Virus record (IMG/VR): IMGVR_UViG_3300010316_000043
Coordinates: 1 to 24,883 of that record
Reading direction: 5' to 3' (one strand)
Length of the DNA: 24,883 nt
Source: a virus
Shown in pieces: positions 3,635 through 24,807 of this stretch; within the stretch, counting starts at the first letter, position 1, and each line of letters begins with the position of its first letter. A program made the position numbers and the translations under genes. The notes below the pieces were generated by a model, which was given only the letters and a program-made list of their open reading frames with translations, made no database searches and was not told where the DNA came from.

Positions 3635-3792
3635 CCACAATAGATAAAATGTGTAAATTATTACTTGCACAAATTAAGAAACCTAGTGTTAAACTACAAA
3701 AAACCGTAAAATTGCCGAAAATACAAGATAATAACCAGTCAATAAAACTTGGGGCAATAAATGAAATCAATAACTCTAATCTGCGAAGCTAA
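3631..3792 (+). CDS. Small basic hypothetical protein between portal and protease
   Basis: A 53-codon frame starts with an ATG that overlaps the portal stop (ATGA) and ends 32 nt inside the protease gene in another frame. The product begins MTTIDKMCKLL and is very basic (about 11 Lys/Arg against 3 acidic residues). The ATGA coupling and its filling of an otherwise empty 126-nt gap argue that it is translated. The lack of a recognisable family and the overlap with the protease start argue for caution. No function is assigned; a basic peptide at this place could be a head-associated or coupling peptide, but that is only inference. Confidence 0.42.
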   Translation: MTTIDKMCKLLLAQIKKPSVKLQKTVKLPKIQDNNQSIKLGAINEINNSNLRS

Positions 3793-4552
3793 ACTTGACA
3801 TACCTAATCCCGCAGATGAGGCAATGCCAACAGGCGCAATAGAAGCTCGTGTAACTACTTGGGGCGCACGAGAAGGCGCAGATGGTCGCAAGTTTAATTA
3901 CCAGCCAGAAGGTTTTATGGACTTTGCGAATGAATTTGCTAAAGCCGAAAAACCGTTGCCAATGTTTTTAAATCATAACGATGTTGGTATGCCGATTGGT
4001 CAATGGGACGAACTCATGTTTGACGATGACGGTATGTCAGCCAAAGGTCGCTTGTATTTAAACACTTCTGCTGGTCAAGACGCATATACAGTCTTAAAAG
4101 AATCACCCAATATGTTTGGTGGTGTATCGGTAGGTGCGTATGCAGACGAAGCCCGATATGTAAACGGCATGGGCGAAGAATTTGATATGGATGCAATGGA
4201 TGATGAGCAAGACGCTTATTTCCAAATTACCAAAGGGGGCTTGCGTGAAATATCGGTGGTTATGTACCCGAATAATCCAGAGGCGAATATTCAGCAATTG
4301 GAATATTTTGATGCTGAAGGAAACGCAAATCCTAGAGCAGTTGAGAAGGTCTTGCGTGATGCAGGGCTATCCCGAAAAGATGCGACCACCGCATCTTCTA
4401 TCCTTAAGAAAGTATTAGAAAAGCGTGACGCTACTAATAAACTTGAGGAAGCCCCAAAGCAGGGTGAGCCTGATGCGGTGGTCAATGAGGCCGATATACT
4501 CTTAGCATTAGAAGAACGAGAGTTATTGAAGGCACTTTCAAAACGTATTTAA
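3761..4552 (+). CDS. Prohead maturation serine protease (HK97 gp4-like, S78/U35 type)
   Basis: The protein (263 aa) would cleave the capsid scaffold (delta) domain inside the prohead before DNA filling. The expected catalytic elements are present: His72 in MFLNHND, Ser123 in FGGVSVGAY, and the Glu163-containing block LREISVVMYPNNPEA that marks the end of the protease core. The tail from about residue 190 is Lys/Glu-rich and helical; in this family such tails are auto-cleaved or interact with scaffold. TTGGGG lies about 6 nt before the ATG at 3761. It directly precedes the capsid gene that carries a scaffold domain, its probable substrate. Confidence 0.92.
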   Translation: MKSITLICEAKLDIPNPADEAMPTGAIEARVTTWGAREGADGRKFNYQPEGFMDFANEFAKAEKPLPMFLNHNDVGMPIGQWDELMFDDDGMSAKGRLYLNTSAGQDAYTVLKESPNMFGGVSVGAYADEARYVNGMGEEFDMDAMDDEQDAYFQITKGGLREISVVMYPNNPEANIQQLEYFDAEGNANPRAVEKVLRDAGLSRKDATTASSILKKVLEKRDATNKLEEAPKQGEPDAVVNEADILLALEERELLKALSKRI

Positions 4553-4561
4553 AGGAATATC

Positions 4562-5902
4562 ATGTTAGATAAAATTACCGAAAAGCTTGACGCAATTGAA
4601 GCGACAAACGTTGCCAAGATTGCCGAAGCACAAGCCGCAGCGGTTGCAGCCGTTGAAGAAGCTAAAGTGTCGTTTGAGGAAAAGGTGGCAGCATTAGAAG
4701 CTAAAATTTCATCAGTCAATGCCCCACCTGTTATTAAAACGTATACAAGCATTACGCAAGAAGTTAACCGTTCAGTAAAAGAGCAAATTAGCAATTTTTA
4801 CAAATCGGGCGCAAAGGTTGAAAAAGAATTAACCATGTTTGCTGATGAGTCACAATATGACGCATACATGAAAGAAGCTTCAGCCTTAACGGGTGGTGGT
4901 GCTGGTGTTGGTGGCCGTACTGCTTATGACCCCGTTTTTGTTGCTTTGCGTTTAGCTAATCCCATGCGTGGTGTTGCTCGTGCGGTTTCGACAGACGGTT
5001 CTACTTACCAATTCCGTGCAAAGACTGGCAATGCTGGCGCAGCATGGGGTTATGCAATTCAGAACAACGGTTCAGCTACAACTCAAGGCACTAACGTTTG
5101 GCAACTTACACTTCAAGACTTAAACGTACAGTTCCCAATTCGTACCGCAGCACTTGATGATATTGATGGCTTAGAAGGTAATGTCGTATCTGACATGATG
5201 GCTGAATTTAGCCAAGCTGAAGCCTTTTCAATGATTCAAAACAACGACCAAGGCGCAACCTCATTGCCCTACGGTGGCTCTAACGGTCTACGTGGTTTAA
5301 ATCAATATGCAGGTCAAGCAGGTACATACGCAGGTGGTAAAACAACCGTAGCAGCGTTTGGTACAAGTGGCACAGGTTCATCAAGCGGTTTACATAGCTT
5401 GGCAACTTATGACCAGTTGACTTCAAACGTCAATACAGTTGGCGCATCTAACGTGACTTACAAAGACTTAGTAAACTTTGTATTCTCATTAGCACCTCAA
5501 TATCGTGTGCCTACATCTAAGTTTTTAGTTAACTCAACCTTTATGGCACAGATTCGTGGCTTAGTGGATTCACAAGGCGCACCAATCTTTAATCGTAACC
5601 AAGGTTTGTCGGTTGACGGTGTGATTGGCACGATGCTTGGCTTTGACGTTGTTGAATCTACTTACCTTGACTTGCCCTCACAGGCAGCAACAGGTTCAGC
5701 AGGTACAACTAGCTTGTACCCAATGTACTTTGGTGATTTCCAAAAAGGGTTTACCATTGTTGACCGTTTGAACATGATTCTGCGTAGATACGACCAGACG
5801 TTGCCAGGCTTTATCACTTTTTACGGTGAGAAGCGTTTAGCAACCTCAGTTGTTGACCCGTTCTCAATCGTGCGTTATCGCTCGACAGGCACAGCTACCT
5901 AA
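4562..5902 (+). CDS. Major capsid protein, HK97 fold, with N-terminal scaffold domain
   Basis: This 446-aa protein should form the icosahedral shell. Residues 1-55 are an alanine/glutamate/lysine-rich coiled coil typical of a delta (scaffold) domain, followed by a linker to about residue 100. The capsid body begins near KEASALTGGG (residue 104), with a Gly-rich N-arm, and includes blocks such as FPIRTAALDDI and AEFSQAEAFSM. The C-terminal block DQTLPGFITFYGEKR is typical of freshwater-type HK97 capsid proteins. Protease cleavage probably falls between the coiled coil and residue 104, but the exact site cannot be read. AAGGA lies a few bases before the ATG. An intrinsic terminator follows immediately, and then a shorter paralogue. 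Confidence 0.93.
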   Translation: MLDKITEKLDAIEATNVAKIAEAQAAAVAAVEEAKVSFEEKVAALEAKISSVNAPPVIKTYTSITQEVNRSVKEQISNFYKSGAKVEKELTMFADESQYDAYMKEASALTGGGAGVGGRTAYDPVFVALRLANPMRGVARAVSTDGSTYQFRAKTGNAGAAWGYAIQNNGSATTQGTNVWQLTLQDLNVQFPIRTAALDDIDGLEGNVVSDMMAEFSQAEAFSMIQNNDQGATSLPYGGSNGLRGLNQYAGQAGTYAGGKTTVAAFGTSGTGSSSGLHSLATYDQLTSNVNTVGASNVTYKDLVNFVFSLAPQYRVPTSKFLVNSTFMAQIRGLVDSQGAPIFNRNQGLSVDGVIGTMLGFDVVESTYLDLPSQAATGSAGTTSLYPMYFGDFQKGFTIVDRLNMILRRYDQTLPGFITFYGEKRLATSVVDPFSIVRYRSTGTAT

Positions 5903-5912
5903 GTAGTGCAGG

Positions 5913-5944
5913 GGGGAGATTAAAAACCTCTCCCCACTTTTTTT
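5913..5944 (+). terminator. Intrinsic terminator between the two capsid genes
   Basis: GGGGAGA (5913-5919) pairs perfectly with TCTCCCC (5929-5935) across a 9-nt A-rich loop, and a run of seven T follows at 5938-5944. This is the clearest rho-independent terminator in the window. It lies 10 nt after the major capsid stop and ends 17 nt before the preferred start of the second capsid gene. No promoter fits in the remaining space, so the downstream late genes must be reached by readthrough, antitermination or a promoter inside the capsid gene. Confidence 0.85.
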
Positions 5945-5961
5945 ATCTAATGGAAATGACT

Positions 5962-6996
5962 ATGAGCATAATCCTTGAATCCGTAAAAGAAGCCCTGCTT
6001 GACGGCAAGGCAACAATCAATTTAAAAGAAGCATCTGCACTTACAGGTTCGGGTTCAGGTGTTGGTGGTCGGGTTATTTATGATGATGCTTTTGCATCAA
6101 AGCGTGAACATAACCCATTGCGTGATGTTGCACGAATAATTGAAACAATTGGTTCGGAAGAAGCGTTTGTTGTGAAGACGGGCAACGCTACACTAATTGA
6201 AAATAGTACAAATAACCCTTGGGGCTATCCTGTTAACAACAACACGGGTTCACCTAACATTGCAACATCATTTTGGCAATTACCCGTGCGGTCATTAAAC
6301 GCAGGTGTGCCAATTCGTACCTCAGTTATGTCTGACATTAACGCTTTAGAAGAAGCTGTTGTAATGGACTTGATGCTTGAGTTTTCGCAGCAAGAAGCAT
6401 TGTCAATGATGTTTAATAGTGACCAAGCGGGTAGCACAACAGTTAATTACGGTGCAACAAGTGGTTTACGTGGCCTTAACAGTTATGCAGGTAGCACAAG
6501 CGCAGCAGCGTTTGGTACAAACGGCTCGGCAATTACAAACGGTTTGCACACAATATTACAAGTTGAGCACACAAACAGTTCAAGCATTGTTTATGATGAT
6601 TTAGCTAAATTGCAAGAAGCTCTACCATCACAATATTTGTATAAAGACACAACTGCATGGATGATGCACCCAAGCACCATTAGTTTATTGCGACAAATGA
6701 AAGCATCCACTTCTAAAAATAACTTTATAGAAGTTGGTAGTTATGAAGGTGGCGCAGTAGTTTATATATTTGGTCATCGTGTTATTCCAAACCCATATAT
6801 GGATGTAATCGGAGTAGGTGGCTTTCCTATTTATCTTGCTGAATGGTCACAATTTTTTACGATTGCAGATTATTCCGAAATGACTTTAAAACGATTTGAC
6901 CAGACAGCACCAGGCTTTATTTATTTGTTTGCTGAAAAACGTGTTTGCTCTACTGTGCGTGATGTGTTTGCAGGCGTTCGTTTGGTCGGTGTTTAA
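5962..6996 (+). CDS. Second, shorter HK97-fold capsid paralogue lacking the scaffold domain
   Basis: The product (344 aa) aligns with the body of the preceding capsid protein. Both share KEASALTG, GVGGR, the NP.R.VAR and KTGNA blocks, and FSQ.EA.SM; by hand count 33 of the first 58 aligned residues are identical. The C-terminal DQTAPGFIYLFAEKR also matches. Here the shared body starts at residue 22, against 104 in the first protein, so the coiled-coil scaffold domain is absent. Three in-frame ATGs occur (5950, 5956, 5962); I prefer 5962 because TGGAA at 5951-5955 gives a ribosome site at 6 nt. The body is intact without stops, so it is not a pseudogene. Likely a minor, vertex or alternative capsid subunit; the role is inference. 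Confidence 0.85.
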   Translation: MSIILESVKEALLDGKATINLKEASALTGSGSGVGGRVIYDDAFASKREHNPLRDVARIIETIGSEEAFVVKTGNATLIENSTNNPWGYPVNNNTGSPNIATSFWQLPVRSLNAGVPIRTSVMSDINALEEAVVMDLMLEFSQQEALSMMFNSDQAGSTTVNYGATSGLRGLNSYAGSTSAAAFGTNGSAITNGLHTILQVEHTNSSSIVYDDLAKLQEALPSQYLYKDTTAWMMHPSTISLLRQMKASTSKNNFIEVGSYEGGAVVYIFGHRVIPNPYMDVIGVGGFPIYLAEWSQFFTIADYSEMTLKRFDQTAPGFIYLFAEKRVCSTVRDVFAGVRLVGV

Positions 6997-6998
6997 TC

Positions 6999-7661
6999 AT
7001 GTCTGATACTTTAGCTAACCCTTATTTAGGCACAAGTCGTAACCCGTTCAACTATCAAAAGGTTGAGCAGGTAAGCCGTGACATTGTGACCGAATGGTTA
7101 ACGCTTGATGAAATCACACAACAGTTAAATTTGTTTCAAGACGAAAGCCAAGACAGCTATTTGTCTAGCCTTGAGTTAGCCACACGTATGGCAATAGAAG
7201 ACTATTTGGGAATGAGTATTTTCCCTGTCACTTATAAGACTTACTACGGCACGTTTAACGGCATAAGTGGCAGTCAGGTAAGCCTAGACTTGCCAGAGGT
7301 GTCACAAGCTTTTCAGGGACAATCAGGCGTCACTATTCTTTCGGTAGAATACTACAGCGGTGACACACCACCAGTTTTGACAGCAGTTGCAACAACAGAT
7401 TATTACTATGACCCAACAGGCAACAAAGTGGTTGTAACTGGTTTACCAAACACGGTAAATAATTTTATAAGTAACCCGATTGTCTGCACATACACTTGCA
7501 ACGCTAACCCTGTTGCACAATATCCTGTTATAAAACAAGCTGGGCTATTATTATTGACGCACATTTACAACAATCGTAGCAACACAACAGAAACAAAATT
7601 AAACGATATTCCGTTTGGTGTAACGCAATTATTACGACCATACAAAGATTTGGTGATGTGA
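6999..7661 (+). CDS. Head-tail connector (adaptor) protein, phiE125 gp8 / gp6-like
   Basis: This 220-aa protein probably forms the adaptor ring bound under the portal. The N-terminal helical part (about residues 35-75, with WLTLDEITQQLNL and LELATRMAIEDYLG) and the C-terminal part (KQAGLLLLTHIYNNRS, then PFGVTQLLRPYKD) match the connector family seen in HK97-like phages. The middle is a beta-rich insertion. It starts 3 nt after the second capsid gene and ends directly against the head-closure gene (TGA then ATG). Its place after the capsid genes and before the closure protein is canonical. No strong Shine-Dalgarno is seen, so coupling to the upstream gene is likely. Confidence 0.85.
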   Translation: MSDTLANPYLGTSRNPFNYQKVEQVSRDIVTEWLTLDEITQQLNLFQDESQDSYLSSLELATRMAIEDYLGMSIFPVTYKTYYGTFNGISGSQVSLDLPEVSQAFQGQSGVTILSVEYYSGDTPPVLTAVATTDYYYDPTGNKVVVTGLPNTVNNFISNPIVCTYTCNANPVAQYPVIKQAGLLLLTHIYNNRSNTTETKLNDIPFGVTQLLRPYKDLVM

Positions 7662-8450: not shown

Positions 8451-8945
8451 ATGGCTCTCCCTAACAAAGTACTCCCAGGCTTTAGTGCAGCTCTCTACGC
8501 TCAACCTACAGCTACACCTACCCCATTGACCACGGCACAATTATCTTTGGTTGCAAGTGTTGCACCAATTGCAATAAGTGGCAACCTTATAAACGTTGAG
8601 GCTGTTCCTGCATTCGGCCAAGATGATGCAATGGCAAACTTTAGCATTGCTGGGTCACGTCAATCAGATAAAATTCCAACGCAATCAGCACCCACAAGTT
8701 TAACCATTACAGCACCTTGGAATCCAAGCGATTCGCAATTGTTAATTATGCGTGGTGATGCTTATTCAGGTGTTATTGACCGTACCTTTGTTATCTCTGC
8801 TACTGAAGGCACAAATATTGTCTATTACGCTTTTAATGGTCGTGTTTCACAGTTTCAAATTGATGCACAACCAGGCGCAGAAGCAAAGGCTATATTTACA
8901 ATCCACCCACGAGGCAACCAGTTCGGTTGGTCTAACAACGCATAA
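8451..8945 (+). CDS. Tail tube protein, copy 1
   Basis: The protein (164 aa) is a probable tail tube subunit whose hexameric rings form the DNA conduit. It is beta-rich, with a conserved N-terminus (KVLPGFSAALYAQ) and the blocks VEAVPAFGQDDAMAN, TSLTITAPWNPSD, GDAYSGVIDRTFVI and FTIHPRGNQFGW. A good ribosome site (AAGGAA at 8440-8445) precedes the ATG after a 34-nt gap, one of the larger gaps in this region, suiting a highly expressed gene. The next gene is a clear paralogue. The tube assignment rests on position (after the terminator, before chaperones and tape measure), size and fold class; a major tail protein with another name would be the same thing. Confidence 0.75.
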   Translation: MALPNKVLPGFSAALYAQPTATPTPLTTAQLSLVASVAPIAISGNLINVEAVPAFGQDDAMANFSIAGSRQSDKIPTQSAPTSLTITAPWNPSDSQLLIMRGDAYSGVIDRTFVISATEGTNIVYYAFNGRVSQFQIDAQPGAEAKAIFTIHPRGNQFGWSNNA

Positions 8946-8954
8946 AGGTTTATT

Positions 8955-9476
8955 ATGGCTATCCCATCAAAAGTATTGCCAGGCTTTGCTGTATCACTAT
9001 GGATGCAATCGGGTGCAACACCCACATCATTTTCTACAGCTAACTTGTCTGTTTGGACAGGACAGGTCGCAACCATTGTCGGTACTGTTGCAAACGGCAC
9101 AGGCGCAGCGGGTGTCCCTGTTAATGTTGAAGCCGTGCCAGCGTTCGGTCAAGATGACGCAATGGCTAACTATTCACTTGCTGGTTCACGTCAATCGGAC
9201 AAGATACCTACGCAATCAGCGCCAACATCGTTGACAATCACAGCACCTTGGAATCCATCAGACGCAGGTTTACTTTTGATTCGTGGCGATGCTTACAGCG
9301 GTGTCATTGATAGAACTTTTGTAATTGCTGCGGTAGATGGTGCAAACACAATTGCCTATTCGTTTAATGGTCGTGTCAGCCAATTTCAAATTGATGCCCA
9401 GCCTGGTGCTGAAGCCAAGTGTGTATTCACAGTACACCCAAGGGGCAATCAATATGGTTGGAGCAACAACACATGA
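8955..9476 (+). CDS. Tail tube protein, copy 2 (divergent tandem paralogue)
   Basis: This 173-aa protein is paralogous to the preceding gene. From the shared NVEAVPAFG block to the end, 98 of 117 residues are identical by hand count, while the first 50 or so residues differ and contain an insertion here (about residues 35-55, with VATIVGTVANGTG). At DNA level synonymous positions differ widely, so the duplication is old and both copies have been kept under protein-level selection. AAAGG at the end of the previous gene lies 8 nt before the ATG. It could be a second tube component, for example for the tube ends or tail tip, or a ratio variant; this cannot be decided from sequence. Confidence 0.75.
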   Translation: MAIPSKVLPGFAVSLWMQSGATPTSFSTANLSVWTGQVATIVGTVANGTGAAGVPVNVEAVPAFGQDDAMANYSLAGSRQSDKIPTQSAPTSLTITAPWNPSDAGLLLIRGDAYSGVIDRTFVIAAVDGANTIAYSFNGRVSQFQIDAQPGAEAKCVFTVHPRGNQYGWSNNT

Positions 9477-9915: not shown

Positions 9916-10432
9916 AGTAGAGTTTGAAGGTTGGGAAGAAACAACCGAGTTATTTAAACAAATCAGTAATGATTTTAGCAAGAAAGACTCAACCAACATT
10001 ATGCGTAGTGCTGTGCGGTTATCAATGAAAACTGTTTTAGCAAAAGCAAGGTCATTGGTAGCAAAGGACACAGGCGCACTTGCCCACAGTTTACAAGTTG
10101 AAGCACGTAAGCCAAGAAAGCAAGACTTTAAGTCTAAATACATTTTGGATGGTGATGTGGTAATTGGTGCAGTCACCACAGCAAGCGGAAAGCAGTTAGC
10201 TAAAATGACATTTAAAAACAAAAAGACAGATAGTAAATTTAAGCAAGTAGGTATTGCCAGCGATGCACGGGCAACAGCATTAGAGTTTGGTACATCTAAG
10301 ATGGCAGCTAGACCGTTTTTAAGAACAGCATTAGAAAGTTCGGCACAAGAAGTCACAGGCACACTTGGCAAATCGTTAGGTGTTGCACTTGAAAAATACA
10401 AAGCAAAACAAGCTAAGAGGGCATTAAAATGA
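9899..10432 (+). CDS. HK97 gp10-like neck/tail component
   Basis: This 177-aa basic protein has the HK97 gp10-like layout: an N-terminal strand (VEFEGWEETTELFK), a helix, the KDTGALAHSLQVEA block (family: P..TG.L..S), a Lys-rich middle, and ALEFGTSKMAARPFLRTALE (family: .EFGT...P..P.lR.A). Members act at the head-tail neck or in tail completion. The preferred start is 9899 because AAAGG at 9886-9890 lies 8 nt before it; the in-frame ATG at 9893 is too close to this site. In most HK97-like phages this gene sits before the tail terminator and tube; here it is after both tube genes. It overlaps the chaperone start by ATGA. Confidence 0.82.
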   Translation: MATIVKVEFEGWEETTELFKQISNDFSKKDSTNIMRSAVRLSMKTVLAKARSLVAKDTGALAHSLQVEARKPRKQDFKSKYILDGDVVIGAVTTASGKQLAKMTFKNKKTDSKFKQVGIASDARATALEFGTSKMAARPFLRTALESSAQEVTGTLGKSLGVALEKYKAKQAKRALK

Positions 10433-10887
10433 ACGGATTATCCAAAGCATTTAACTTGTCAAAAGATGAGTTACGCATCAGAACATTTGAGTTTGCAGGA
10501 CACACCTTTAAGGTTCGTGTACCGTTAACCGTAGAACTTGATTCTATGAATGAACGCCTAAAGAAACCAGACCCAGAACTGGCTAAAAAATTCTACGATG
10601 AGATGACCAAAGACCTAACCGAAGCATCGGAGATGGTAGTCATTACTGACGATGATGTCATTTACGATGGCAACTCAATCAAGAAGTTTTCAAATGACAA
10701 GGCTGTTGTGCAAGAACGCATCACGTTAATGTTGCAATACTTAGTGCCAGAGGAAGACGGTTTTGATATGTCTAGCATTACGTATGAAATGATTGATGAA
10801 CTATTTCCATACCCAATACAGCTTGAATTGGTTAAGTTAATTGGTGAAACGATTAGTCCGTCTTATAATCAAACAAAGGTAAAGTAA
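10429..10887 (+). CDS. Tail assembly chaperone (gpG-like)
   Basis: A 152-aa protein that probably coats the tape measure protein during tail assembly, as lambda gpG does, and is absent from the virion. It is mostly helical and acidic (LTVELDSMNERLKK, PELAKKFYDEMTKD, EMIDELFPYPIQL). The start overlaps the upstream stop (ATGA), with AGAGGG about 9 nt before. The next open frame downstream is in the -1 frame and overlaps only a short window (10869-10887), the classical arrangement for a programmed frameshift. Direct evidence for the chaperone role is position, size and this arrangement rather than a sequence motif. Confidence 0.8.
   Translation: MNGLSKAFNLSKDELRIRTFEFAGHTFKVRVPLTVELDSMNERLKKPDPELAKKFYDEMTKDLTEASEMVVITDDDVIYDGNSIKKFSNDKAVVQERITLMLQYLVPEEDGFDMSSITYEMIDELFPYPIQLELVKLIGETISPSYNQTKVK
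10869..10887 (+). promoter_or_regulatory. Probable -1 ribosomal frameshift window
   Basis: The gpG-like frame stops at 10885-10887. The -1 frame is opened by a stop at 10866-10868, so a shift must occur within 10869-10884. Two candidate slip sites read AACAAAG (10872-10878) and GGTAAAG (10878-10884). Both place AAG in the A site, which can re-pair with AAA after a -1 slip, and the second differs by one base from the lambda G/T heptamer GGGAAAG. Either gives the same 266-residue total. P-site re-pairing is imperfect in both, so the exact site is uncertain. Confidence 0.6.
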
Positions 10888-11228
10888 TTGGGTCAGTCCG
10901 TAAGCAGGTTAAAGCATATCTAACAGCTCACGGTGCTGACCCTGCATTAGTAGATGAGGAAACGTTTGCCGACATATCGGTTATGTATCACGCAGGACTA
11001 ATTGGCAACATTGGCTTGCTAGAAGTTTTAGGAAACCTAACGGCTGGACAGTTTAATAAAATGTTACCCAAAGGCAAAGCTGGCTATAAGTTGCAAGACA
11101 TTATTCCTAATACGTATGATTTTATTTACCCACCACTAAGTGAACAAGACAAGAAAGCACAAGTAAATCAAAGTCTGTTAGCTTTTGCGCTAATGAGTCC
11201 AGGCGCACCGAGCATATTAAAAGGGTAA
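10869..11228 (+). CDS. gpT-like extension, expressed as a gpG-T fusion by -1 frameshift
   Basis: This open frame has no start codon with a ribosome site. Its first ATG is at 10983, without a Shine-Dalgarno, and coding-like sequence begins well before it (GSVRKQVKAYLTAHGAD). Read from the frameshift it adds about 114-116 residues to the gpG-like protein, giving a fusion of 266 aa against 279 in lambda. The content (helical, with FADISVMYHAGL, LLEVLGNLT, YDFIYPP) suits a tape-measure-binding extension. It lies directly before the tape measure gene, whose ribosome site AAGGG (11221-11225) is in its last codons. Independent translation from 10983 (81 aa) is the less likely alternative. Confidence 0.72.
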   Translation, partial: SNKGKVIGSVRKQVKAYLTAHGADPALVDEETFADISVMYHAGLIGNIGLLEVLGNLTAGQFNKMLPKGKAGYKLQDIIPNTYDFIYPPLSEQDKKAQVNQSLLAFALMSPGAPSILKG

Positions 11229-11231
11229 ATA

Positions 11232-13304
11232 ATGGCAAACATTGCACGTCTTGGGGTAGCACTAGGTTTAAATACTGCTGAGTTTCAGACAGGTTTAAAG
11301 GGTGCAATGGCGTCTCTTGACAAGGTTAAGAACGCTGCCGTTGTAGTCGGTACTGCTATTGTCGCAGCAAGTACTGCTTTTGCATACATGACCAAGCAAT
11401 CTATAAACAATATGGATGCGCTTGCAAAACAAGCGCAAATGGCAGGTGTTACAACCGAAAGCCTGTCAGCACTTGCTTATGCGGCAGACCTTGCAGGGGT
11501 TAGCCAAGAAAGCCTTGTTACTAGTATGGTTCGGCTATCCAAGGGCATGAGTGATGCTGCTATGGGTACGGGCGAAGCCATCAAAGGCTTTAACGCACTT
11601 AAAATTGATTACAAAAGTTTACAAAGTACAGATGATGCGTTATTGCAAATTGCAGAACGGTTTGAACAATTAGCCGATGGCACAAATAAGACGGCTATTT
11701 CAAACAGTTTATTTGGGCGTTCAGGCGCAACGTTAATCCCGTTCTTAAACGCTGGCAGAGAAGGCGCAGAAAAGCTCAGAATAGAAGCAGAAAAATTGGG
11801 GTTAGTGCTGGCTGGCGATACAACCAAGTCGGCAGAACAGTTTAACGACAGCTTGACCAAATTGGGTAGCATTTTTAAAGGGTTAATAAACCAAACAACT
11901 ACAGCATTACTGCCAATCTTAAATAGCATTACTCAAGAAATGTTTAATTCTTATCTTGAAGCTGACCAGTTTAGAGGTTCAATACAAGATATTATACGTA
12001 CAGATTTACCACGGTGGCTTAATAAAATAGCCTATGGTTTTGCATTTACTGCTGACATAATCGGTAATGTCATAAACGTACATCGTGGTTTAGCTATGGT
12101 TTTACTTCACGCAGCTGATGTTGTCAGTTACGTGATGGCAAACATTCAATATTCAATGTCAGTTACTGATGCACAACAAGAAGCAGCTTTAGCAAAGCAA
12201 GCATCAACATTGGCAAAGCTAAAACAAAACGAACAAGACTTTGATGCGTTTCAAAAAGAAAGTTATAAAAATAGGTTAAGTTTTAGCAAAGCAATGGAAG
12301 ATTTACAGAATAGTGCAATAGATAAACCAATAATAGAAATGGATTTAGTAAAGCCACAAGCACCTGCAATGGTTGACCCAAAGGCTGTTGACAAGATGGG
12401 TAATATGCTTAAAGAAGCACAACTAGTGGCTGCCGAGTTTGAGAGAGAGCGTCAGCACGGTCTTGAGATGCTTCAAATCAAAGCAAGCATGGCAGGTATG
12501 GCTACTAATGAAAAAAGAGTACAGGAGGCGGTTAACGCAGTCCTAGACGCCACAAGTGCCAAGTTACAGGAAATATCAGACAAACGGGAAAAGGCAGCGG
12601 GTCAAGGTGCAGATTCTGCAACGCTTAACGAGTATGACAGACAAGCATCAGAGGTTGAAAGGCTTGGCGGTATGTATGCAGAGATTACCCGACAGATGGA
12701 AGAGGCAACAATAGCATCACAAATGACATTTACATTTGGGTGGAATAAAGCGTTTGCACAATTTAGCGAAGATGCTCAAAACTATGGCGCAATGGCTGCC
12801 GATATGTTTGGCTCTTTAGTTAGCAACATGAACACGGCTATAGACAATTTTGTTGAAACAGGCAAATTGTCATTTAGTAACTTTGCAGAAAGTGTGATTC
12901 AAGACATTATTAAAATACAGCTAAAAATGCAAGCAAGTCAACTATTACAAATGGGTATTAAGTTTGCAATAGGTGCGTTTAGTGCGGGTACTGCATCGGG
13001 TGGTGTGCCAGGAGGTGACCCAGGCTCTTACTCAACATTTGCAAGTGGTGGCACGATTACAGGGCCAAGTATAGTGGGCGAGAATGGCCCTGAATTGTTT
13101 ATCCCTGGCAGGTCAGGTGCAATCATTCCAAACAACAATTTGAGTGATGTTATGGGTGGTGGTGGTGTTACTTACAACGGCACAGTCATTCAAAACATGA
13201 GCGCAATAGATACTCAGTCTGGCTTGCAATTTTTAGCAAAGAACAAGATGAACATTTACGCACTTAACATGTCTGCTATGCGTTCGATTCCAGCGGGAAG
13301 ATAA
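11232..13304 (+). CDS. Tape measure protein
   Basis: This 690-aa protein sets tail length and is probably ejected ahead of the DNA. It has the family layout: a helical, Ala-rich N-terminus (TAEFQTGLKGAMASLDKV), the segment MDALAKQAQMAGVTTESL, hydrophobic stretches near residues 35-55 and 265-305, and a long coiled coil (about 385-490). A further hydrophobic stretch precedes the terminal motif GPSIVGENGPELFIPGRSG, common at tape measure C-termini. At about 0.15 nm per residue the tail would be near 100 nm. AAGGG at 11221-11225 is 6 nt before the ATG. The position after frameshifted chaperones is canonical. No lytic transglycosylase or peptidase domain was recognised inside it. Confidence 0.93.
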   Translation: MANIARLGVALGLNTAEFQTGLKGAMASLDKVKNAAVVVGTAIVAASTAFAYMTKQSINNMDALAKQAQMAGVTTESLSALAYAADLAGVSQESLVTSMVRLSKGMSDAAMGTGEAIKGFNALKIDYKSLQSTDDALLQIAERFEQLADGTNKTAISNSLFGRSGATLIPFLNAGREGAEKLRIEAEKLGLVLAGDTTKSAEQFNDSLTKLGSIFKGLINQTTTALLPILNSITQEMFNSYLEADQFRGSIQDIIRTDLPRWLNKIAYGFAFTADIIGNVINVHRGLAMVLLHAADVVSYVMANIQYSMSVTDAQQEAALAKQASTLAKLKQNEQDFDAFQKESYKNRLSFSKAMEDLQNSAIDKPIIEMDLVKPQAPAMVDPKAVDKMGNMLKEAQLVAAEFERERQHGLEMLQIKASMAGMATNEKRVQEAVNAVLDATSAKLQEISDKREKAAGQGADSATLNEYDRQASEVERLGGMYAEITRQMEEATIASQMTFTFGWNKAFAQFSEDAQNYGAMAADMFGSLVSNMNTAIDNFVETGKLSFSNFAESVIQDIIKIQLKMQASQLLQMGIKFAIGAFSAGTASGGVPGGDPGSYSTFASGGTITGPSIVGENGPELFIPGRSGAIIPNNNLSDVMGGGGVTYNGTVIQNMSAIDTQSGLQFLAKNKMNIYALNMSAMRSIPAGR

Positions 13305-13987: not shown

Positions 13988-14589
13988 ATGTCATTACACC
14001 TGTTGAAAATACAAACAACCTTAGATATGCTGACTTTGTACGTGTGACTACACCAGATGCGGTTTATCGGTTTGCCACTACATCTTCACCAATTACTGTA
14101 ACAGCTGTTGACGCTGAAGCGTTTAGTGCGCTTGGCATTTTAATGAAGGTAGGTGATACACAGCGAGACATTAAAAGCACGGCAAATGAGACATCATTTA
14201 CATTGGTTGGCATTGACACAGCGATGCTGGGTTGGGTCTTAGGTAATCAAATCAAAGGTAGTCAAATAGAGGCGTGGAAAGGTTTTTTTAATACTAATGG
14301 CGAACTGATTACTACAGGTGGCACGGGTGGACTGTATCAATTCTTTAATGGTTACATAAATTCGTTTTCAATAAATGAACAATGGATGGAAGAAGTGCGT
14401 TCGTTTGTCGGTGTGATAAGTGTGTCGGCATCTTCTACGCAACTCATCTTAAAGAACAGAACTGCTGGCAGGTTTACTAACGATAACAACTGGCAATTCT
14501 TTGCACCTAATGACACTAGTATGGATAGAGTAGCTTTTATTACAAACATCAACTACAACTTTGGTAAAGATGCACCTAGAAACTCATGA
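13984..14589 (+). CDS. Minor tail protein, tail-tip hub (gpL / DUF2163-like)
   Basis: The protein (201 aa) is beta-rich. Its C-terminal region resembles the gpL/DUF2163-type signature, in which an Arg-rich segment is followed by a PGDTGF-like turn: here NRTAGRFTNDNNW and then FAPNDTSMDRVAFI. It overlaps the preceding gene by ATGA and the next by ATGA. In lambda-like tails gpL follows gpM and helps build the tip between tape measure and gpJ, matching its place here. Lambda gpL carries an iron-sulphur cysteine cluster; no cysteine is present in this protein, so such a cluster is absent. Confidence 0.55.
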   Translation: MNVITPVENTNNLRYADFVRVTTPDAVYRFATTSSPITVTAVDAEAFSALGILMKVGDTQRDIKSTANETSFTLVGIDTAMLGWVLGNQIKGSQIEAWKGFFNTNGELITTGGTGGLYQFFNGYINSFSINEQWMEEVRSFVGVISVSASSTQLILKNRTAGRFTNDNNWQFFAPNDTSMDRVAFITNINYNFGKDAPRNS

Positions 14590-15020
14590 TAAGACAAGCC
14601 ACAATACACGATAAAGTTCAAATTATTCAGATGATGAAATTGTTTCGTAAAGAAGCAAATATTCAGCAATACAAAAATTTGGACAATGAGCCATATTGGA
14701 ACAAGCTACTAGATACGATATTAGCTGGTGCTGGCATTGTGTTTATAGAAGATAACGTGGGCTTAATAATGGCATTGATAACACCGACAGTATGGTGTGA
14801 CAAGACTTTATATATGCAAGAACTTGCGTGGTATGTAGTACCTGAAAAAAGAAACACAAGCGTTGGCTATCGGTTATTAAAGAAGTATGTTGAGTATGGC
14901 AATAAATTAAAAGCTGAAGGTAGAATTTGTTTGTTTGCAATAGCAAAGATGGTTACAAGTCCTGACATAAAGTATGGCAAATTTGGCTTTAGTAAATTAG
15001 ATGAAAACTGGATTCAATAA
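14586..15020 (+). CDS. GNAT-family N-acetyltransferase-like protein in the tail module
   Basis: A 144-aa protein with the GNAT layout: MIRQATIHDKVQIIQMM (strand 1, helix 1), a central GIVFIEDNVGLIMALI strand pair, YMQELAWYVVPEKRN (strand 4), and then TSVGYRLLKKYVEYGNKL, corresponding to the acetyl-CoA-binding loop and helix. The R-N-T-S-V-G-Y-R-L loop fits the R/Q-x-x-G-x-G/A consensus only loosely. It ends KYGKFGFSKLDENW, the usual GFxxxE end. It overlaps both neighbours (ATGA and TAATG) and so is an integral part of the tail operon. It occupies the place where many phages carry the NlpC/P60 gpK. Substrate unknown; modification of a tail or host protein is inference. Confidence 0.75.
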   Translation: MIRQATIHDKVQIIQMMKLFRKEANIQQYKNLDNEPYWNKLLDTILAGAGIVFIEDNVGLIMALITPTVWCDKTLYMQELAWYVVPEKRNTSVGYRLLKKYVEYGNKLKAEGRICLFAIAKMVTSPDIKYGKFGFSKLDENWIQ

Positions 15021-23781: not shown

Positions 23782-24044
23782 AACTTACAATTGTAGATGA
23801 TGCAAAAGACTGGTCTAAGTGGTGGTCAGTACGACTGTCAATCATAGGCGGTGCAATACTTACATTCTTGGAGGCTTTCCCTCATGCTGTCGCAACTGTT
23901 ATCCAAACTCTTCCCGACTCCGTCACGACCCAAGTCGGTGACGAAATCCTCAGAGTCATTGCCATCGTCTGCATCTGTGCAAGCCCAATTGCCCGAGTCA
24001 TCAAACAGTCAAAACTTGTTGACGAAAGCAACAAAGCAGATTAA
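23778..24044 (+). CDS. Holin (two membrane segments, DUF7940-like)
   Basis: An 88-aa protein with two hydrophobic segments, at about residues 18-35 (VRLSIIGGAILTFLEAF) and 56-76 (EILRVIAIVCICASPIARVI), and a charged C-terminus ending KLVDESNKAD. The opening VDDAKDWSKWWSVRL fits a holin-like family (LVDDW...W.WSVRL) that I believe is DUF7940. It would form the inner-membrane lesions that let the lysozyme reach the wall. The start overlaps the XhlA-like stop (ATGA). The last 161 nt also encode the N-terminus of the lysozyme in another frame, and base composition changes there. Confidence 0.72.
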   Translation: MKLTIVDDAKDWSKWWSVRLSIIGGAILTFLEAFPHAVATVIQTLPDSVTTQVGDEILRVIAIVCICASPIARVIKQSKLVDESNKAD

Positions 24045-24447
24045 AAGACATGAGGGATTTGTAAGCCACGGTTATAAAGATAGCCTAGGCTTTTTAACGG
24101 TAGGGTATGGTCGACTGATAGACAAATCAAAGGGTGGTGGCATTAGTGAAGTAGAAGCTGAGTATTTATTAGCTAACGATGTTAATCATGTCTATGACAG
24201 CCTGATGCACAATTTGTCGTGCTTTACGACCCTTGATGCACCTCGGCAAGCAGTCCTACTTAATATGGCTTTTCAGATGGGAATCCACGGGCTTTTGCAA
24301 TTTAAGAATACTTTGCGATTGATTGAAGTTGGCAATTACGATGGTGCAGCCGACAATATGTTGCAGTCCCTTTGGGCAGAGCAGACACCAAATCGTGCAC
24401 AAGAAATGGCAACGCAAATGAGGACTGGTGTATGGCAATCTGGCTGA
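23884..24447 (+). CDS. Endolysin, T4-type lysozyme (GH24)
   Basis: This 187-aa muramidase should cleave peptidoglycan between N-acetylmuramic acid and N-acetylglucosamine. The catalytic triad is intact: Glu57 in RHEGF, Asp66 in YKDSLG and Thr72 in FLTVGYGR, with the same 9- and 6-residue spacings as Glu11/Asp20/Thr26 of T4 lysozyme. VEAEYLLANDV and the C-terminal NRAQEMATQMRTGVW complete the fold. The start at 23884 is chosen because TTGGAGG (23868-23874) lies 9 nt upstream. This adds a Ser/Pro-rich 50-residue leader with no signal peptide or SAR helix, so export should rely on the holin. Alternative starts are TTG codons at 24016 and 24019 just before the catalytic domain, without a good ribosome site. 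Confidence 0.88.
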   Translation: MLSQLLSKLFPTPSRPKSVTKSSESLPSSASVQAQLPESSNSQNLLTKATKQIKRHEGFVSHGYKDSLGFLTVGYGRLIDKSKGGGISEVEAEYLLANDVNHVYDSLMHNLSCFTTLDAPRQAVLLNMAFQMGIHGLLQFKNTLRLIEVGNYDGAADNMLQSLWAEQTPNRAQEMATQMRTGVWQSG

Positions 24448-24677
24448 GATTTAAAGGGTACATAATAGTCGCTGCTGGGGCTGTATTAAGCGTTATAGCG
24501 ATTTATTTAGCAGGGCGCAAGCAAGGTTATGACTTAGCAGAAAACGACATGAGAGAGGCTGATAATGCAAAAGCAAGGACAATTCAGGATTTGGCAGATA
24601 GGGTGCGCAGGGCTGACGGTGACAATGTTACTGCTATTGAACGGCTGCGGGTCGCTAAAAGGCTCAGAGACCTCTAG
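24432..24677 (+). CDS. Rz-like inner-membrane spanin
   Basis: This 81-aa protein has an N-terminal signal-anchor helix (YIIVAAGAVLSVIAIYLAG, residues about 10-28) and a charged periplasmic part (ENDMREADNAKARTIQDLADRVRRA) predicted as coiled coil. This is the inner-membrane spanin layout, which with the lipoprotein partner fuses inner and outer membranes at lysis. It is shorter than lambda Rz (153 aa). GAGGA at 24420-24424 is 7 nt before the ATG, and the start overlaps the lysozyme end by 16 nt. The o-spanin gene begins inside it in another frame, as in classical overlapping Rz/Rz1 pairs. Confidence 0.8.
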   Translation: MAIWLRFKGYIIVAAGAVLSVIAIYLAGRKQGYDLAENDMREADNAKARTIQDLADRVRRADGDNVTAIERLRVAKRLRDL

Positions 24678-24807
24678 GACAATTTGTAGAGAGTTAGAGA
24701 GGGACTTGCCTACCTACTCTGTTAAAGACACGCCACAGACCTTAGAATCAGGCGCACGGTTCATTGATATATTTAACGCTGTGTGTGGTGTGGCGAATCC
24801 TCGATAA
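24565..24807 (+). CDS. Rz1-like outer-membrane spanin lipoprotein
   Basis: An 80-aa protein with a signal sequence ending in a lipobox (LLLLNGCGS, lipidated Cys28). This leaves a 53-residue mature lipoprotein with SETSRTICRELERDLPTYS. GAGAGAGG at 24551-24558 is 6 nt before the ATG. The gene overlaps the Rz-like gene by 113 nt in another frame and then continues 130 nt past its end, so it is overlapping rather than embedded. Positions and lipobox make the spanin assignment solid, and they argue for a Gram-negative host with an outer membrane. Confidence 0.85.
   Translation: MQKQGQFRIWQIGCAGLTVTMLLLLNGCGSLKGSETSRTICRELERDLPTYSVKDTPQTLESGARFIDIFNAVCGVANPR

Follow-up and report, generated by a model that had tools for sequence, protein, structure and literature searches.

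The gene that follows the major capsid gene (MCP1) in this siphophage encodes a second capsid protein, MCP2, and the annotation of this gene in the cultured relative P19250A as a 'hypothetical protein' needs correction. We consider it somewhat better than an even bet (probability about 0.57) that MCP2 is a low-copy shell subunit working as a vertex (penton) protein in the manner of T4 gp24, a position in the virion that we infer from conservation, divergence and expression proxies.

A tandem pair of capsid genes

The DNA that we analysed, an IMG/VR virus contig of 24,883 bases (hereafter the window), holds the packaging-head-tail-lysis half of a siphophage genome. The features that bear on the capsid pair, together with two downstream landmarks, are as follows:

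3761-4552, plus strand: prohead protease, Peptidase_S78 (PF04586, E 1e-9; phrog_80 match)
4562-5902, plus strand: MCP1, major capsid protein, 446 aa (PF05065, E 2.6e-31; phrog_10; GTA capsid 6tb9)
4562-4870, plus strand: delta-type scaffold region of MCP1 (predicted helices 2-51 and 64-81, then the KEASALTG junction)
5903-5948, plus strand: G+C-rich hairpin and T-run in the MCP1-MCP2 spacer (folding energy, covariation in relatives)
5950-6996, plus strand: MCP2, second capsid protein with a predicted HK97 fold, 348 aa (PF05065, E 6.6e-19; AlphaFold2 model; adjoins MCP1)
5962-6027, plus strand: N-terminal pro-segment of MCP2, short and PDAR-like (MSIILESVKEALLDGKATINLK; helix-turn-strand predicted, up to the junction)
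6025-6069, plus strand: KEASALTGSG..GG junction in MCP2, putative site of cleavage, where the mature N-arm would begin (conservation 0.86)
6999-7661: gp6-like connector (PF05135)
11232-13304: tape measure (PF09718)

The S78 protease lies directly upstream of both coat genes, and no other capsid-type protease was identified near the pair. The small terminase matches PF05119, the large terminase and portal are assigned from position and size, there is a weak HK97 gp10-like match, and tail tip, fibre and lysis genes are present. The window holds a second tandem duplication, 8451-8945 and 8955-9476, whose proteins are 70% identical and, from their major-tail-tube position, are inferred to be tail tube proteins; among 158 relatives with enough sequence, 50 carry only the first type, 72 only the second and 36 both. 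Two short ORFs 5' of the tape-measure gene (10429-11228) occupy the position of the tail assembly chaperones, which are joined by a frameshift in many siphophages. In the tail-tip cluster, 14586-15020 gives a weak GNAT acetyltransferase match below the Pfam cut-off (E 0.005), and the cultured phage P19250A has a gene of similar size at the same place. After the lysozyme ORF (23851-24447) come two overlapping ORFs, 24372-24677 and 24565-24807, resembling the inner-membrane and lipoprotein spanins of an Rz/Rz1-style pair.

BLASTP aligned MCP1 and MCP2 over 349 columns with 38% identity and an E value of 7e-67, which excludes a chance likeness. Both proteins scored above the 24.2-bit cut-off of PF05065 (Phage_capsid), MCP1 with 109.5 bits and MCP2 with 68.8 bits, and the family was matched by 40 of 42 MCP2 relatives. 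These results confirm the two related, adjacent capsid genes of the original prediction. In the case of MCP1 the AlphaFold2 model was too poor (pLDDT 52), so that the fold assignment rests on the strong profile match. The phrog_10 match spans residues 4-445, and the profile match to the Rhodobacter capsulatus GTA capsid (6tb9) has an E value of 1e-10. The MCP2 model, built from 41 sequences, reached a pLDDT of 67 and a pTM of 0.71, with confidence lowest in the N-arm. Its best solved matches in Foldseek were the same GTA capsid (E 8e-17) and HK97 prohead I (8fqk, E 1.5e-14), with TM scores of 0.5-0.6 against the HK97, GTA and D3 capsids. MCP2 is thus predicted to have the HK97 fold, which is how the structure prediction proposed earlier as a check on the second gene came out. 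Among solved structures, Rcc01687 of this GTA gave the best sequence match to both MCP1 and MCP2 and the best structural match to MCP2; it differs in that its deposited capsid holds a single coat protein, as far as the entries show.

MCP2 keeps an E-loop, a P-domain and an N-arm of normal size. One relative (L063:2858-4105) has a 67-residue in-frame insertion at the MCP2 E-loop that resembles phrog_21413 and the tail-fibre family phrog_38233; judged from the sequence, such an insertion fits an exposed position of MCP2 on the shell.

N-terminal region of the two proteins

About 103 residues precede the shared junction KEASALTG in MCP1, the size of the HK97 delta domain, and helices 2-51 and 64-81 are predicted within them in a low-confidence model (pLDDT ~65 there), in agreement with the N-terminal scaffold of about 100 residues originally proposed. 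With this scaffold and the adjacent S78 protease, MCP1 carries two features of an HK97-type self-scaffolding coat protein. HK97 gp5 and the D3 coat protein likewise have a fused N-terminal scaffold of ~100 residues, in which a coiled coil is followed by a helix-turn-strand element (PDAR or 'spoke') and then by the cleavage site. In the HK97 prohead, a coiled-coil tower makes up one part of the scaffold; the other is a helix-turn-strand at residues 76-103, which binds the P-domain, adding a strand to its sheet, and leads up to the cleavage site (PMC10275583), and the D3 scaffold also ends in such a P-domain clamp, at residues 81-113 (PMC12749128). HK97 and D3 differ from the phage studied here in that one protein makes pentons and hexons, whereas here a second, tower-less coat gene comes next.

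MCP2 has 25 residues before the junction if it starts at ATG 5950 (348 aa) and 21 if it starts at ATG 5962 (344 aa). The latter is the more probable start, because a GGA motif lies upstream of it and MS(L/I)ILES opens the protein in close relatives. Within the pro-segment of ~22 residues, I8, L9, K13, A15 and G19 are each conserved in at least 91% of 102 relatives, and the junction KEASALTGSG that follows is the best-conserved stretch of the protein (mean conservation 0.86, compared with 0.70 in the rest of MCP2). DSSP analysis of the AlphaFold2 model gave a helix at residues 2-18, a turn and a strand at 20-23, in a part where pLDDT is 48-68. In place, length and predicted elements, the pro-segment resembles the HK97/D3 P-domain clamp, a likeness between a model and solved structures that should be taken as a structural lead only. 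Profile comparison revealed no sequence similarity between the pro-segment and either half of the MCP1 scaffold, and gave no support to the idea that the MCP2 N-terminus is the MCP1 scaffold with an internal deletion that kept its first or last helix (p 0.40 and 0.59, respectively).

The claim that MCP2 lacks a scaffold domain holds for the coiled coil and is too strong for the rest: MCP2 is without the coiled-coil tower only, and retains a short pro-segment and a likely cleavage junction. With its predicted clamp-like pro-segment and its conserved junction, MCP2 is likely to be processed at KEASALTG by the S78 protease, as MCP1 would be. The view that MCP2 would not need protease cleavage is thus not supported, the more so as T4 gp24, the protein with which it was compared, is itself trimmed: the T4 protease removes 65 residues from gp23 and 10 from gp24 (PMC9958956). 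A much shorter pro-segment in the minor paralogue is common to both systems, MCP2 having ~22 residues before the junction and MCP1 ~103.

In a subclade of five relatives (L031, L034 and L036-L038), ~95 extra residues stand before the MCP2 pro-segment (extended genes at L031:5691-7013 and L034:2816-4141) and match phrog_2859, a family of unknown function, with an E value of 2e-31. The same module is N-terminal in long MCP-annotated proteins of the Synechococcus phages S-CBS1 and S-CBS3 and of Roseobacter CRP phages; the length of these phrog_2859-headed capsid proteins, ~800 residues, suggests protease-capsid fusions.

Retention, divergence and expression of the pair

Two MCP1-seeded scans of viral contigs, which did not select for MCP2, returned 122 distinct MCP1 proteins. 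On every contig that extended far enough (112 of 112 distinct MCP1), MCP2 was the next gene in the same orientation. The remaining 10 contigs run out within 700 bases, and not one case of a missing MCP2 was seen. All scans together gave the pair in 241 of 241 loci, and the longest contigs of the phages that bear it are mostly 36-40 kb. The search for the pair in related phages that had been suggested as a check thus found retention in all testable loci and no decay. A split MCP2 was found only in L055, where the protease and tail-tube ORFs of the same contig are split as well, and is probably a sequence error. In another relative (L059:8888-9520), an ORF with a NUMOD3 motif, of homing-endonuclease type, sits in the MCP1-MCP2 spacer. 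Genome contigs searched for a prophage or host link yielded only five phage-like contigs in unrelated MAGs; these contigs of the MCP1/MCP2 family (L123-L127), one of them labelled archaeon Nitrosotalea, probably owe their placements to binning errors.

Among named phage records, Methylophilaceae phage P19250A (KX815270), the one cultured relative in the pair-bearing family, is alone in carrying both genes. It has the same gene order, with 64% identity to the MCP1 and 53% to the MCP2 of the window, and differs in that its MCP2 is annotated 'hypothetical protein' and one tail-tube-type gene was found. The MCP2 junction of P19250A reads EAAGLQG in place of EASALTG. The more distant phages VW-6S, Bcep176 and ctuI7215, which have a related MCP, possess only one coat gene, and the small ORFs behind it are annotated as something else. 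Methylophilales phage Venkman EXVC282S (L119, MT375522) is said to be syntenic with P19250A (PMC8163748); we rejected it as a relative. Its GenBank record shows podovirus-like genes, among them a scaffolding gene of its own, and neither MCP1 nor MCP2 was matched. We found no paper on tandem HK97 paralogues in small phages in the open-access literature.

A maximum-likelihood tree was computed for both paralogues of 51 genomes and three outgroup coat proteins. All MCP2 sequences fell on one side of a single branch with 100/100 support, so the pair goes back to one old duplication that preceded the diversification of the phage family. Purifying selection acts on both copies with equal strength (dN/dS 0.143 for the MCP2 body and 0.144 for MCP1), and this, together with the retention, rules out a pseudogene or decaying copy. 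MCP2 has changed faster, with a mean column identity of 54% versus 72% for MCP1. Gene conversion between the copies was also rejected: MCP1-MCP2 identity was no higher within than between genomes (excess ~0). MCP1 and MCP2 are an obligate and ancient pair, a stronger observation than the one first stated.

The subunits of one capsomer meet at the A-domain, and it is here that the paralogues are most diverged. The ratio of between-paralogue to within-paralogue identity was 0.49 in the A-domain and 0.60-0.74 outside it (N-arm 0.74, P-domain core 0.70), the domain borders being approximate. Three loops of 7-9 residues, at 252-259, 288-294 and 374-382 of MCP1, are missing from MCP2.

In nearly all genomes the spacer, usually ~55 bases long, contains a G+C-rich hairpin, which a T-run often accompanies. 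In the window its folding energy is -14.6 kcal/mol with a modest z of -1.9; in 97 relatives the medians are -20.6 kcal/mol and -3.1, and z is below -2 in 88%, unlike the stretch 3' of MCP2, where z is ~0. The stems show two-sided letter changes across relatives with pairing retained. Its loop of 9 bases explains why the hairpin of the window escaped a scan for consensus terminators. We expect the hairpin to be a terminator-like or 3'-end stabilizing element that lowers downstream expression. C-ending codons among NNY are the usual sign of high expression in A+T-rich genomes, and the NNC fraction was 0.50 for MCP1, 0.39-0.43 for the tail tube, 0.37 for MCP2, 0.33 for the protease and 0.32 for the portal. 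It was higher in MCP1 than in MCP2 in 96% of 102 genomes (p 5e-18), and MCP2 did not differ from the portal gene. Because of the hairpin and of this weaker codon bias, which is a proxy and not a measurement, MCP2 is probably made in a much smaller amount than MCP1.

MCP2 in the shell

In the model that we favour, a duplicated major capsid gene would have become a low-copy HK97-fold shell subunit. MCP1 would form the hexamers (~360 copies) and MCP2 the pentamers at the 11 non-portal vertices (~55 copies) of a T=7 head, T number and copies both being estimates. The coiled-coil scaffold towers would be supplied by MCP1, the tower of MCP2 having been lost; in the procapsid the MCP2 pro-segment would clamp its own P-domain, the S78 protease would cut MCP2 at KEASALTG as it would MCP1, and the hairpin 3' of MCP1 and the weaker codon bias would hold MCP2 well below MCP1. 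Codon bias, spacer hairpin and A-domain divergence lend support to the gp24-like division of labour originally put forward, and the virion position of MCP2 stays as conditional as it was there. Against the model, the portal-like codon bias makes fewer than 55 copies possible, the A-domain may be the fastest-diverging part of any HK97-type protein, the AlphaFold2 model of MCP2 is of moderate confidence, and the pro-segment showed no sequence likeness to the MCP1 scaffold.

The essential role of T4 gp24 is known from mutants, which counts against a full parallel with MCP2. Among 42 MCP2 members, no credible Pfam match other than PF05065 was found at E values up to 0.1; on sequence grounds MCP2 is outside the T4 gp24 family and would only work like gp24. 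Its nearest paralogue is its own MCP1 family, with which it groups in the tree, and for this reason the duplication is taken as independent of that in T4. The phages also differ, in that here a ~38 kb siphophage has an S78 protease and, as part of MCP1, a fused delta-type scaffold, whereas T4 has a separate core and gp21. T4 gp23 and gp24 resemble MCP1 and MCP2 in being two HK97-fold paralogues, the minor one shorter, with a diverged intracapsomer interface, and some of the bypass-24 mutations, by which gp23 becomes able to form pentons, fall in the A-domain (PMC9958956).

The same interface bears on the possibility that MCP2 is a minor hexamer subunit that sets capsid size or curvature, or an alternative coat for a second particle type. 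For the PDAR, perhaps retained by MCP2, a controlling influence on dihedral angles and on the size of the capsid has been proposed (PMC12749128), and the normal-size E-loop, P-domain and N-arm would suit a hexamer. Yet the intracapsomer A-domain is the most diverged part, which disfavours mixed capsomers, and the strict single pair occurs in ~36-40 kb genomes with no obvious size variation, so we regard this role as unlikely. The portal-like codon bias has a further reading, namely that MCP2 occupies a special site other than an ordinary vertex, for instance around the portal, where an MCP1 tower would clash or the 5:12 symmetry mismatch would have to be bridged. The portal has 12 copies in known phages. 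No phage is known to us in which paralogues form a ring of this kind. In HK97 at least 30 scaffold domains touch the portal, unlike those of regular pentons, and a tower-less subunit would differ there; but the scaffold domain also recruits the portal (PMC10275583), which makes a tower-less subunit a poor choice and the portal site rather improbable. Least probable of all is that MCP2 is absent from the mature head, whether as a factor that helps assembly and is then removed or as a dispensable relic, since its lower conservation and weak codon bias are offset by purifying selection equal to that on MCP1, retention in every testable contig, an intact predicted HK97 fold and a conserved junction.

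Returning to the vertex model, we propose tentatively, at somewhat less than even odds, that a ~38-kb siphophage family has a dedicated vertex coat, independent of that of T4, which would be a natural separation-of-function scaffold with clamp and protease site kept and the tower dropped. If this is true, MCP2 shows which half of the HK97 scaffold a penton needs. According to a 2026 review (PMC13185644), a single gene supplies both pentons and hexons in phages of ~40 kb, HK97 and P22 among them, and the far larger T4 is named as an exception. A family of small aquatic phages, widespread and never seen to lose its second coat gene, runs counter to the argument of one-gene economy. The division of gp23/gp24 type, otherwise known mainly from the larger T4, would extend to a large family of small freshwater phages, and P19250A would offer a compact culturable system in which to study why a separate subunit is needed at the pentons and how tasks are divided between the parts of an HK97-type scaffold.
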